A DNA stretch of 64,000 nucleotides, taken from positions 1-64,000 of the forward strand of contig JAKARB010000008.1 in the NCBI GenBank assembly GCA_021819435.1, written 5' to 3'. Position 1 is the stretch's first letter, and each line of letters opens with the position of its first letter. Made by a program: the position numbers and the translations under genes. Positions 5,327 through 8,338 of the stretch are shown piece after piece. Source of the DNA: Pseudomonadota bacterium (GTDB lineage Bacteria; Pseudomonadota; Gammaproteobacteria; Burkholderiales; Burkholderiaceae_C). The notes under the pieces are model-generated. The model made no database searches. It was given only the letters and a program-made list of their open reading frames with translations, and was not told the origin of the DNA.

Positions 5327-5492
5327 GCCTTGCCACTCCTTGACCATGGTGCGCAATGTGCCATCCCCGCGCATGCGCATTTTCTTCTGAACAGGCCTTG
5401 GATCGGCGCACTTCCGGCGATCCTCGCGTCGAATCCGCACGAAGATGACGCAATCTGGCGACTGCTTTGCCGCCCTGAAGCCTCATCCATCC

Positions 5493-6386
5493 ATGAACCC
5501 CATGTTTCTTCCTGCGTTGTGTTGTTTGGCGCGATCCGTCTGGCGGGCGGGGCTGTGGCTCGGGCTGGTTGCCTGCACTTCAGCCTGGGCGGGTGACCGG
5601 CTGTTGGCCACCTCGGGGGTGTCGCAAGTGGAGGGAGCTGCCGGCGGCGGCCTCGCGACCTGGGCTGTCATCGGTGGCCATGGCAGCAGCGATCAGGTGG
5701 GCGCGTCGGCTTACGCCACTCACATCCGCACCCAGGGCAAGTTCAACCTTGGCATCCAGGGCGTCGCTGTTGGGGTGAACGATCGGGTCGAGGTCTCGAT
5801 GGCGCGCTGGAGCTTCAAGTTCGGTGACACGGTGCCCGGTGAGAGCGCCCGAATGAACGTGCTGGGCGCCAAGGTGCGCGTGCTCGGCGATGCCGTCTAC
5901 GACCAGGACGTCTGGTGGCCGCAGGTCAGCGTGGGCTTTCAGCACAAGCACAACGAAGACTTCAAGACCGTGCCTACCTTGCTGGGCGCCACTCGGGGCT
6001 CCGACACCGACTGGTACGTGGCCGCCACCAAGGTGTGGCTGGGCGCAGCCTGGGGGCGCAACGTGTTGGGCAACGTGGCCTTGCGAGCCACGCGGGCCAA
6101 CCAGTTCGGCCTCCTCGGCTTCGGGGGTGACCTGGGCAATCGGCATCAACTCATGCCAGAAGCCAGCCTGGCCGTGCTGTTGCGCGATGACTTCGCCCTG
6201 GGCGCCGAGTGGCGTGCCAAGCCGAATCGGCTCAGCGCGTTCAAGGAAGAAAACGCGTGGGATATTTTTGCGGCCTGGTTCCCTCACCGCAACCTGAGCC
6301 TGACCGTGGCTTGGCTGGAGTTGGGCAACATCGCCGACAAGCCGGCGCAGCGCAGCGTGTACCTCTCCGCACAAGCGGGTTTCTGA
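5493..6386 (+). CDS. DUF3034 family outer-membrane protein
   Basis: From MNPMFLPA the product is 297 aa with a signal peptide ending near TSAWA (about residue 33). The rest alternates polar and hydrophobic residues and ends in an aromatic beta-strand (SVYLSAQAGF), as expected for a beta-barrel exported to the outer membrane. The sequence matches my recollection of the DUF3034 family, whose function is unknown. It is transcribed away from the globin operon; the 166-base gap 5327-5492 probably holds both promoters. Repeated association would suggest it supplies the same pathway, but that is inference. Confidence 0.7.
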   Translation: MNPMFLPALCCLARSVWRAGLWLGLVACTSAWAGDRLLATSGVSQVEGAAGGGLATWAVIGGHGSSDQVGASAYATHIRTQGKFNLGIQGVAVGVNDRVEVSMARWSFKFGDTVPGESARMNVLGAKVRVLGDAVYDQDVWWPQVSVGFQHKHNEDFKTVPTLLGATRGSDTDWYVAATKVWLGAAWGRNVLGNVALRATRANQFGLLGFGGDLGNRHQLMPEASLAVLLRDDFALGAEWRAKPNRLSAFKEENAWDIFAAWFPHRNLSLTVAWLELGNIADKPAQRSVYLSAQAGF

Positions 6387-6438
6387 ACGACTGGCTGTGC
6401 GCATGCCTGAGAGCCAGGAAACACAAATCTGAACGGGC

Positions 6439-6475
6439 AAAAAAACAGCCCGGACGCTCAAGGCGACGCGGGCTG
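6439..6475 (-). terminator. Rho-independent terminator on the minus strand
   Basis: Arms CAGCCCG (6446-6452) and CGGGCTG (6469-6475) form a 7-bp stem. On the minus strand they are followed by seven T (6439-6445); on the plus strand there is no T-run. No minus-strand protein gene precedes it within 300 bases, so it would end a transcript arising from the intergenic region. Confidence 0.65.
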
Positions 6476-6674
6476 CGCTTCGGCCGCTCACAATTCGGAG
6501 GGCCTGGACCGGTGGGGCGATCCCCGATCCTGTGCCCCTTGCGGGGAGCCACCTCACCGGTGGCGTGGTGCAGCCGGATCGCCCGGCCGACCTGAGTGGA
6601 GCAGGTCTGGCACCCATTGACCTCCGTCACCCGGAGGATTCACGGTTGACGAACACCTCGTCGATCACCGTGAA
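6439..6674 (-). ncRNA. Candidate structured non-coding RNA
   Basis: The 400-base gap between the DUF3034 gene and nnr holds a series of stems in minus-strand order. SL1: 6639-6646 pairs with 6667-6674 (8 bp), with an inner 5-bp stem 6648-6652/6658-6662. SL2: CCTCCG/CGGAGG (6621-6637). SL3: ACCTG/CAGGT (about 6590-6606). A 9-bp helix 6515-6523/6576-6584 encloses GCCACC/GGTGGC (6548-6564) and CCCC-GCAA-GGGG (6535-6546). The GCAA loop is a GNRA tetraloop only on the minus strand, and the terminator at 6439-6475 also works only on the minus strand. Loops read GGTGA twice and GGTGT once. It matches no RNA family I can recall, and the 5' end is undefined. Confidence 0.45.
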
Positions 6675-6787
6675 GCCATTGTGCGTGAGTGCGTTGCGCG
6701 TGTCTGTGCGTTTTCTCACGACTTGTTTGAGGTTCGCTCTGAGCAAGGCTTGGCTGTGCGAAAGTTGGCGTTAGGAAGGTTGAACCC

Positions 6788-8338
6788 ATGCCCAACGAAG
6801 TCCTGACCACCACCCAGATGGCGAGCGCGGATGCCGCCACCATCGCCCGGGGCATGCCCGGCATCGTGCTGATGCGCTCGGCCGGCGAGGCCGTTGCACG
6901 GGCCATCGTGCAGCGCTGGTCGCCGAGGCCGGTGACCGTGCTCTGCGGGCCTGGCAACAACGGGGGTGACGGCTGGGTGGCGGCGAGGGCCTTGCATCAG
7001 CAAGGCTGGCCGGTTCGTGTGCACACCTTGGTGCCGCCCGACGCTTTGCGCGGCGATGCTGCGCAGGCCGCACGTGAGTGGCTGATGGCGATGGCAGCAC
7101 CGGGCGCAGCCGGATCAGGCCGCCCTGGCTGCCATCCTTTGGCCGAGGCCAATCCCCAGCCTGGAGAGTTGGTGATCGACGCGCTGTTCGGCGCCGGCCT
7201 GAGCCGACCACTCGACGAGCCCGTGCGCCAGTTGCTCGAGCGGATCGCGATGCGCCAGGTGCCCATCGTGGCGGTCGATGTGCCAAGCGGGCTCATGGGG
7301 GACACCGGCCGGGATCAAGGCGCCGTGGCGTGTGCCTTGACAGTGACCTTCTGCCGCCTCAAGCCCGCGCATTTGCTGATGCCGGGCCGAGCCTTGTGCG
7401 GCGAGTTGGTGTTGGCCGACATCGGCATCCCCGATGCCGTGGTTCGAGAGCTTGGGGTGCGGGCTTGGGAGAACCAGCCTGGCTTGTGGTCTGACACCTG
7501 GCCTTCGGTCGATGTGGCCGGGCACAAGTACCACCGGGGCCATGCGCTGGTGTGGGGCGGCGGTGTCATGACCGGGGCGGCCAGGTTGTCTGCGAGGGCT
7601 GCGGCGCGCGTGGGTGCGGGGCTCACCACGGTGTGTGTGCCGCAGTCCGCGTGGGCGGTCTATGCCACGGCGCTGACCTGCATCATGGTGCACCCGGTGG
7701 GCGGTGAAGGCGCTGCCCAGTGGCAGGCCGGTTTGAACTCGCTGCTTGCCGATGATCGGCTTAGCGCTGCCCTGATCGGTCCGGGTGCGCTGGGCGGCAC
7801 ACAGCCTGGCGGCTTGCGGGCGCTCGTGTTGACCCTGCTGGCCTGCCGTCGTCCGGTGGTGCTCGATGCCGACGCACTCACGGTGTTCGCCGAAGACCCG
7901 TCGTTGTTGTTCGCCGCCATCGCAGGGCACAGCCGGCCGGTGGTGCTGACGCCGCACGATGGCGAGTTCAATCGACTCTTTCGCGCACCGCATGTCGACG
8001 GGGCGGCCAGCAAGCTGGAGCGGGCCCGCGAGGCCGCTCGCCTCAGCGGCGCGGTGGTGCTGCTCAAGGGCGCCGACACCGTGGTGGCAGCGCCGGACGG
8101 CCGCGCGAGCCTCAACCGCAACGCGCCCAGCGAGCTCGCCACCGCTGGTTCGGGTGATGTGCTGGCTGGCTTGGTGCTGGGCCTGCTCGCACAGGGCATG
8201 CCGGCCTGGCAGGCCGCTTCGGCGGCGGTGTGGCTGCATGGCGAGGCGGCGTCGGCATTCGGGCCGGGCTTGATTGCTGACGATTTGCCTGAACTGGTGC
8301 CACGGGCTCTGCGTCGCTTGCATCTGGTGCAGCCGTGA
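6788..8338 (+). CDS. nnr: Bifunctional NAD(P)H-hydrate epimerase/dehydratase
   Basis: The 516-aa protein repairs hydrated NAD(P)H. The N-terminal YjeF_N epimerase domain (about 1-215) shows the CGPGNNGGDGWVAAR nucleotide-binding motif. The C-terminal ADP/ATP-dependent dehydratase (about 235-510) shows LTPHDGEFNRL, VVLLKGADTVV and the ribokinase-like closing motif TAGSGDVLAG. The fusion and length are the usual bacterial form. The start lies after a weak AGGAAGG stretch. It is monocistronic as far as can be seen, ending 62 bases before the convergent diguanylate cyclase gene. Confidence 0.93.
   Translation: MPNEVLTTTQMASADAATIARGMPGIVLMRSAGEAVARAIVQRWSPRPVTVLCGPGNNGGDGWVAARALHQQGWPVRVHTLVPPDALRGDAAQAAREWLMAMAAPGAAGSGRPGCHPLAEANPQPGELVIDALFGAGLSRPLDEPVRQLLERIAMRQVPIVAVDVPSGLMGDTGRDQGAVACALTVTFCRLKPAHLLMPGRALCGELVLADIGIPDAVVRELGVRAWENQPGLWSDTWPSVDVAGHKYHRGHALVWGGGVMTGAARLSARAAARVGAGLTTVCVPQSAWAVYATALTCIMVHPVGGEGAAQWQAGLNSLLADDRLSAALIGPGALGGTQPGGLRALVLTLLACRRPVVLDADALTVFAEDPSLLFAAIAGHSRPVVLTPHDGEFNRLFRAPHVDGAASKLERAREAARLSGAVVLLKGADTVVAAPDGRASLNRNAPSELATAGSGDVLAGLVLGLLAQGMPAWQAASAAVWLHGEAASAFGPGLIADDLPELVPRALRRLHLVQP

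Follow-up and report, generated by a model that had tools for sequence, protein, structure and literature searches.

Between the convergent DUF3034 gene and nnr, the minus strand of the window (the whole stretch of DNA that was analysed, 64,000 nucleotides in length) carries a structured RNA gene of about 234 nt, which extends from 6439 to about 6672 and has an intrinsic terminator at its 3′ end. The features of the locus are listed below by position, with the helix pairs in which both bases have changed among homologous sequences.

5445..6386, plus strand: DUF3034 gene (Pfam), the convergent neighbour in the window; its position beside the RNA is not conserved (synteny)
6439..6672, minus strand: predicted mature RNA, about 234 nt; the minimum-energy fold shows the comparative helices, and relatives occur in 26 of 42 genus genomes
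6439..6475, minus strand: terminator, stem CAGCCCG/CGGGCUG followed by seven T; three pairs changed on both sides in one of nine sequences
6482..6504, minus strand: hairpin P6, CGAAUUGU in the window; most relatives have a GRU-type loop; 6 of 7 pairs changed on both sides
6506..6530, minus strand: hairpin P5; 8 of 9 stem pairs changed on both sides, 77.3% of cells paired
6535..6546, minus strand: hairpin P4; 2 of 4 pairs changed on both sides, 80.6% of cells paired, GCAA loop in only 4 of 27 sequences
6548..6564, minus strand: hairpin P3, GCCACC-GGUGA-GGUGGC; 3 of 6 pairs changed on both sides
6565..6615, minus strand: three-way junction P2 (GGUGC/GCACC), which encloses P2a and P2b; 5 of 6 pairs changed on both sides
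6572..6588, minus strand: hairpin P2b; 3 of 6 stem pairs changed on both sides; its loop at 6578-6582 (GCGAU) pairs with 6517-6521
6589..6607, minus strand: hairpin P2a; 5 of 5 pairs changed on both sides
6621..6637, minus strand: hairpin H1, CCUCCG-GGUGA-CGGAGG; 2 of 5 pairs changed on both sides
6641..6672, minus strand: 5′ hairpin H0, loop GGUGU; the inner-stem strands co-change among relatives, outside the pair counts
6677..6683, minus strand: promoter-like box CACAATG, conserved, with CACACTG, CACATTG or GATACTG in relatives (alignments of 23 loci)
6788..8338, plus strand: nnr, NAD(P)HX epimerase/dehydratase (Pfam YjeF_N and Carb_kinase); divergent neighbour at 22 loci

Read from 5′ to 3′, the order is the box CACAATG, H0, H1, P2 (with P2a and P2b inside), P3, P4, P5, P6 and the terminator. 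The stem of H0 consists of CACGGU/ACCGUG, which has eight pairs when two extra bases per end are included, and GACGA/UCGUC. It corresponds to the 8+5 bp stem-loop described in the initial annotation, where the two 6-bp stems with GGUGA loops (H1 and P3), the GCAA tetraloop stem (P4) and the minus-strand terminator with its seven T had been recognised as well. A 9-bp closing helix from the same source could not be pinned to one helix, the candidates being P5 (7+2 pairs) and the terminator stem. P1, in which CCGG/CCGG pairs closed the core in our first model, was dropped because H1 and P6 covary while the CCGG pairs did not; the wider alignment puts these bases in H1 and P6.

The conserved CACANTG/GATACTG box stops 4 nt short of H0, and the 5′ end of the RNA was placed by reference to it; it is situated some 105 bp upstream of nnr and is directed away from that gene. 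No sigma-70 promoter was found at the locus with a consensus promoter scanner. The terminator at 6439-6475 was also left unreported by this scanner, which allows loops of up to 8 nt, probably because its loop exceeds that length. The minimum-energy fold of 6439-6672 on the minus strand has a z of -2.89, with none of 200 shuffles equally stable, and its helices are those of the comparative structure. When 6430-6690 is folded, the plus strand reaches a z of -3.10 against -3.04 for the minus strand, so that folding energy proves neither strand nor function. The minus strand was chosen because of the terminator, the loop pattern and the conserved box; the orientation of the GNRA loop, which had been put forward for the same strand, is a weak argument given how rarely P4 carries GCAA.

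In the window a 129-codon minus-strand frame (6241-6630) overlaps the RNA, and conservation explained by such a frame had been named beforehand as a possible refutation, the region then being protein-coding or an attenuator instead of an RNA gene. None of the six frames stays open in all 23 homologous sequences, and the window's frame is therefore not conserved; the lengths of these sequences differ by single bases, and their changes are compensatory. A coding explanation of the conservation is largely ruled out on these grounds, and a coding or attenuator region is extremely improbable. A separate stretch at 6655-6697 on the minus strand shows 85-92% identity over 26-42 bases of the box and H0 region to the coding DNA of one protein, which we take to be SapC-like, in six other genomes. 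An origin of the RNA from this coding DNA was rejected, as the similarity does not extend beyond the box and a part of H0 and was seen only in close kin of the window.

Covariation of the helices and the P2b-P5 kissing loop

Eight helices covary. In the 27-sequence alignment, 34 of 48 pairs have changed on both sides, and 89.2% of 1291 cells are paired as against 35-45% with the partners slid; this alignment was fitted to the structure and hence leans toward it. In a MAFFT alignment of 23 sequences, 87.1% of 1095 cells are paired and 29 of the 48 pairs have changed on both sides. The covariation score on this alignment is 0.392, compared with 0.195 for shuffled controls, which ignore kinship (0 of 500 reach it), and with 0.112 at most for slid versions, which retain it. 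The lower pairing of P4 and P5 is partly due to variable loop lengths and to the L058 clade being out of register. Since homologous loci preserve the helices through compensatory changes, the locus stands beyond chance, and the stem covariation whose lack had been set beforehand as a possible refutation is present.

A tertiary contact between the loops of P2b and P5, which the initial annotation had missed, is shown by covariation in the aligned sequences. The P5 loop segment at 6517-6521 (AUCGC) kisses the P2b loop through five pairs, and 133 of 135 cells are paired in the 27-sequence alignment, which was fitted without that pairing. The covariation of the kissing loop is 0.500 against 0.227 in shuffled controls (0 of 500), and the best slid version pairs 65.1% of cells. 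On the MAFFT alignment six pairs are formed, with 92.0% of 137 cells paired. Kissing pairs changed on both sides number three in the 27-sequence alignment (matched by 89 of 500 shuffles) and four in the MAFFT alignment (matched by 26 of 500); shuffles often match these counts because few pairs vary. Across the sequences, the five central pairs occur in eight fully matched combinations, including GCGAU/AUCGC, GUGGU/ACCGC, GGUGA/UCACC and GAUGG/CCAUC. In L149 (157-321) and L152 (2968-3132), an 8-base pairing is possible between the P5 loop, GGAUCACC, and the P2b loop, GGUGAUCC.

On this comparative evidence the locus almost certainly encodes a conserved structured RNA, apparently from a stand-alone small RNA gene with a putative promoter and predicted transcription of its own. 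The initial observation of a structured minus-strand RNA at 6439..6672 with its own terminator is confirmed by the comparative helices, their covariation and the terminator itself.

Relation to known RNA families

The size and terminator of the RNA, which are of a kind usual for small RNAs, would suit a highly divergent representative of a family already known, such as 6S. No match to the RNA was obtained when the whole window was searched against Rfam 15 at the gathering score (cmscan). At E up to 10 the region gave five chance-level matches, and 6S, SRP, tmRNA and RNase P were not among them, which bears out the earlier view that the RNA lies outside 6S, 4.5S, tmRNA and RNase P. Nor was any credible Rfam match found over the RNA at 19 relatives' loci (15 plus 6, of which L132 and L141 repeat genomes). 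At one of these loci a weak minus-strand match to the sRNA sX4 (26.8 bits, cut-off 70) overlaps a tRNA gene (L057, 2644-2784, equal to L141, 2902-3042).

The RNA resembles 6S RNA (RF00013) in length class and in being a stand-alone gene; it differs in that RF00013, at E up to 10, has no match at the RNA locus, and a separate 6S-like RNA is present in the genome. The sole 6S match of the genome lies on another contig (G000:C6:188667-188849, L038), with 34 bits against a cut-off of 46.4, so the Rfam model covers the 6S RNA of this group poorly. Because no Rfam family reached or approached its threshold over this RNA, either in the window or at those relatives' loci that were searched, and because the genome's own 6S-like RNA is located elsewhere, a divergent known family is very unlikely.

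The ornate RNAs GOLLD, ROOL and OLE have sizes far above about 234 nt and form loop contacts. They share a complex fold with the present RNA, which is far smaller and whose pairing, to the extent that covariation can show, is intramolecular; a paper on these RNAs discusses kissing loops (PMC12286853). A candidate Burkholderiales-1 motif is named in a table, with no Rfam accession beside it (PMC2864571). The two share an order-level host group; as for range, the RNA described here was found in one genus only, which makes identity with that motif unlikely. Among the listed matches of literature searches, covered as titles and the beginnings of abstracts, no description of the RNA was seen. By sequence comparison, the RNA is a genuine structured family that occurs in a single genus and has no entry in Rfam 15; its function can be proposed as set out below.

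Occurrence in the genus and genomic context

When 61 genomes were searched with blastn, eight clear matches (L009-L016) came up in addition to the window itself, all in the same genus; the exact core pattern is present in five named contigs, three of which are Aquabacterium, and this is the basis of the genus name. A contig of the laboratory strain Aquabacterium parvum B6 also has the exact core pattern. A core covariance model (R1) found the RNA in 19 of 42 genus genomes, and inspection upstream of nnr in further genus genomes yielded three more copies. R2 (23 sequences) and R3 (27 sequences) each list 27 of the 42 genomes; the match in G018 (22-23 bits, E 0.0056 and 0.0217) was discarded, which brings the count to 26. 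Among these carriers, 22 have the RNA beside nnr and divergent from it, and four have it at a second place. The 27 sequences represent 26 genomes, G014 being counted twice, with the gene context of its second copy cut off. The G014 copies (L058 and L064, on contigs C44 and C22) are slightly different, either through a real duplication or through a mixed assembly.

At the second place (G007, G013, G455 and G458) the RNA has, by eye, the same box and a terminator. An outer-membrane efflux (OEP) gene precedes it in G007 and G013 (Pfam); by eye, G455 has a matching frame, and in G458 only the 3′ end of the gene is seen before the contig edge. The downstream neighbours of the RNA vary between species.

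With R2 and R3, 16 of the 42 genus genomes are without a credible match. Twelve of these have nnr with an empty upstream region (the nnr of G012 being a distant one), and no complete nnr was found in the other four. In L118, L119 and L148 (from G011, G027 and G009), the gene order of the window, with nnr, DUF3034 and the genes that follow, is retained, and the RNA is missing between nnr and DUF3034.

Given that the RNA is kept just upstream of nnr in 22 genomes, it might be a cis element or an antisense regulator of that gene. This explanation is quite unlikely: the RNA reads away from nnr, and 14 genus genomes have nnr without the RNA in the upstream stretch read. Cis control of nnr was rejected because four copies lie elsewhere.

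In a tree built from 34 nnr proteins, of which 21 come from loci with the RNA and 13 from loci without it (G013 and G458 being counted among the latter), presence of the RNA requires 5 changes; the shuffled mean is 10.6, and none of 500 shuffles needs so few. The RNA is found on both sides of the midpoint root, which is arbitrary. We read these patterns as those of an old RNA of the genus that has probably been lost or moved several times. Its lack in 16 of 42 genomes and the at least five changes of presence on the nnr tree suggest that it is hardly essential.

No credible copy was found outside the genus in samples of 399 family genomes each with R1 and R2 and of 230 family genomes with R3, nor in an order sample of 399 genomes with R2; as only 7-12 candidates were scored per genome, weak relatives may be missed. 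All 24 weak matches outside the genus, 2 from the family search with R1, 13 from that with R2 and 9 from the order search, were inspected and rejected. Open frames of at least 290 codons enclose 22 of them, and L113 lies in a 169-codon frame; such frames are common in GC-rich DNA, so the overlap is a pointer and no proof. The match in L109 lies outside a long frame and is a hairpin followed by T, not this RNA. Plasmid and phage records gave no match, and viral contigs gave none for one exact pattern.

The GRUNN loops and a proposed function

The GGUGA loops of H1 and P3 belong to a wider pattern, GRUNN, which is common to H0, H1, P3 and P6; that H0 and the 3′ hairpin P6 fall within it had gone unnoticed initially. 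In 23 sequences these four hairpins supply 92 loops, of which 87 begin with G, 91 have a purine as the second base and 90 have U as the third. Mainly these first three bases are kept, positions 4-5 are free, and the closing stems below change pair by pair. Among the 27 sequences, GRU is found in H1 in 24, in P3 in 23 and in P6 in 23, compared with 9 for the control loop P2a and 5 for P4; in these RNAs at large, a GRU begins at 312 of 5929 positions (5.3%). The motif was picked after inspection, and the counts are not independent, because the copies are related and kinship inflates them. There are exceptions: the P6 loop of the window is GAAUU, H1 departs from the pattern in L126, L149 and L152, and H0 does so in L057, L072 and L074 and, by eye, in L149 and L152. 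Of the 27 sequences, four have AGUGA in P3 and three have AGU in P6.

A base-pairing antisense sRNA, perhaps acting with Hfq, would use the GRU loops, including the Shine-Dalgarno-like GGUGA, to contact mRNAs or the 16S tail. The terminator with its U tract and the free loops would suit such an RNA, and GGUGA and UCACC are complementary. The P5 loop of two copies, L149 and L152, is GGAUCACC, which we take to be also part of the 16S rRNA 3′ end. Against this, the same hairpins that carry GGUGA have GAUCU, GAUUU, GGUAA, GAUGU or AGUGA in relatives, with positions 4-5 free, so that the initial proposal of pairing between GGUGA and the 16S anti-Shine-Dalgarno tail is poorly supported. The rest of the RNA is mostly paired in the predicted fold, and no long conserved single-stranded seed was seen. 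We regard antisense action as conceivable, if rather unlikely.

The RNA might also be structural or assembling, if the GRU loops and the complementary P5 loop swapped partners and so formed a switch or multimers. P2b itself starts with GRU (columns 66-68) in 17 of 27 sequences and kisses P5, and the GGUGA loops of H1 and P3 in the window could pair with UCGCC of P5 with one wobble. In nearly every sequence, though, P5 pairs with P2b and the other loops do not track P5; L045 and L050, for example, have GAUCU in P3 alongside ACCGC in P5. Partner swapping is accordingly unlikely.

CsrB and RsmZ are decoy RNAs. Like them, the RNA described here stands alone and has several hairpins with one short loop motif, shared with the exceptions given above, and no evident base-pairing seed. 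Unlike them, its repeated motif is GRU and not GGA, and its core is a junction with a kissing loop. The sites of CsrA lie in hairpin loops and have GGA at their centre, with ANGGAN for RsmE (PMC7652899). Between H1 and P6, each sequence here has 0-2 copies of ANGGA, whereas CsrB and RsmZ have GGA in most loops; with GGA not the repeated motif, the RNA is no member of the CsrB family by that test and may still work in a similar way.

Binding of a regulator, the other guess made initially, is the reading we favour; the initial interpretation as a whole is partly supported. The gene would be read from the promoter-like box, away from nnr, and would end at the intrinsic terminator. Covariation shows the RNA as a row of hairpins round the three-way junction, locked by the P2b-P5 kissing loop. 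Its own box and terminator, the second genomic place and the varying downstream neighbours point to action in trans, and the four similar loops carried by the folded core hint at a single protein with multiple sites on the RNA, on the pattern of CsrB. We therefore put forward, tentatively and by analogy, that it is a stand-alone, trans-acting, multivalent protein-binding RNA, CsrB-like without GGA, whose folded core would display four GRUNN hairpins, each a site for the same putative RNA-binding protein. One RNA could then sequester or scaffold several protein copies, as CsrB does for CsrA. Alternatively, the GRU loops may have a role in base pairing or in stabilising the loop. A more specific form of the proposal is that the RNA constitutes a new family which titrates a putative GRU-loop-binding protein by means of four GRUNN hairpins on a kissing-loop-locked scaffold, as a decoy parallel to Csr/Rsm with its own recognition code that arose, or was retained, in Aquabacterium only; this is a speculative and doubtful suggestion.

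The RNA adds to the known families one that is well supported, that Rfam 15 lacks and whose tertiary contact is documented by covariation. Should the repeated GRU loops prove to be protein sites, a bacterial RNA-binding regulator awaits discovery, and the four-loop design would make it easy to fish for that protein and to test it by point mutation.
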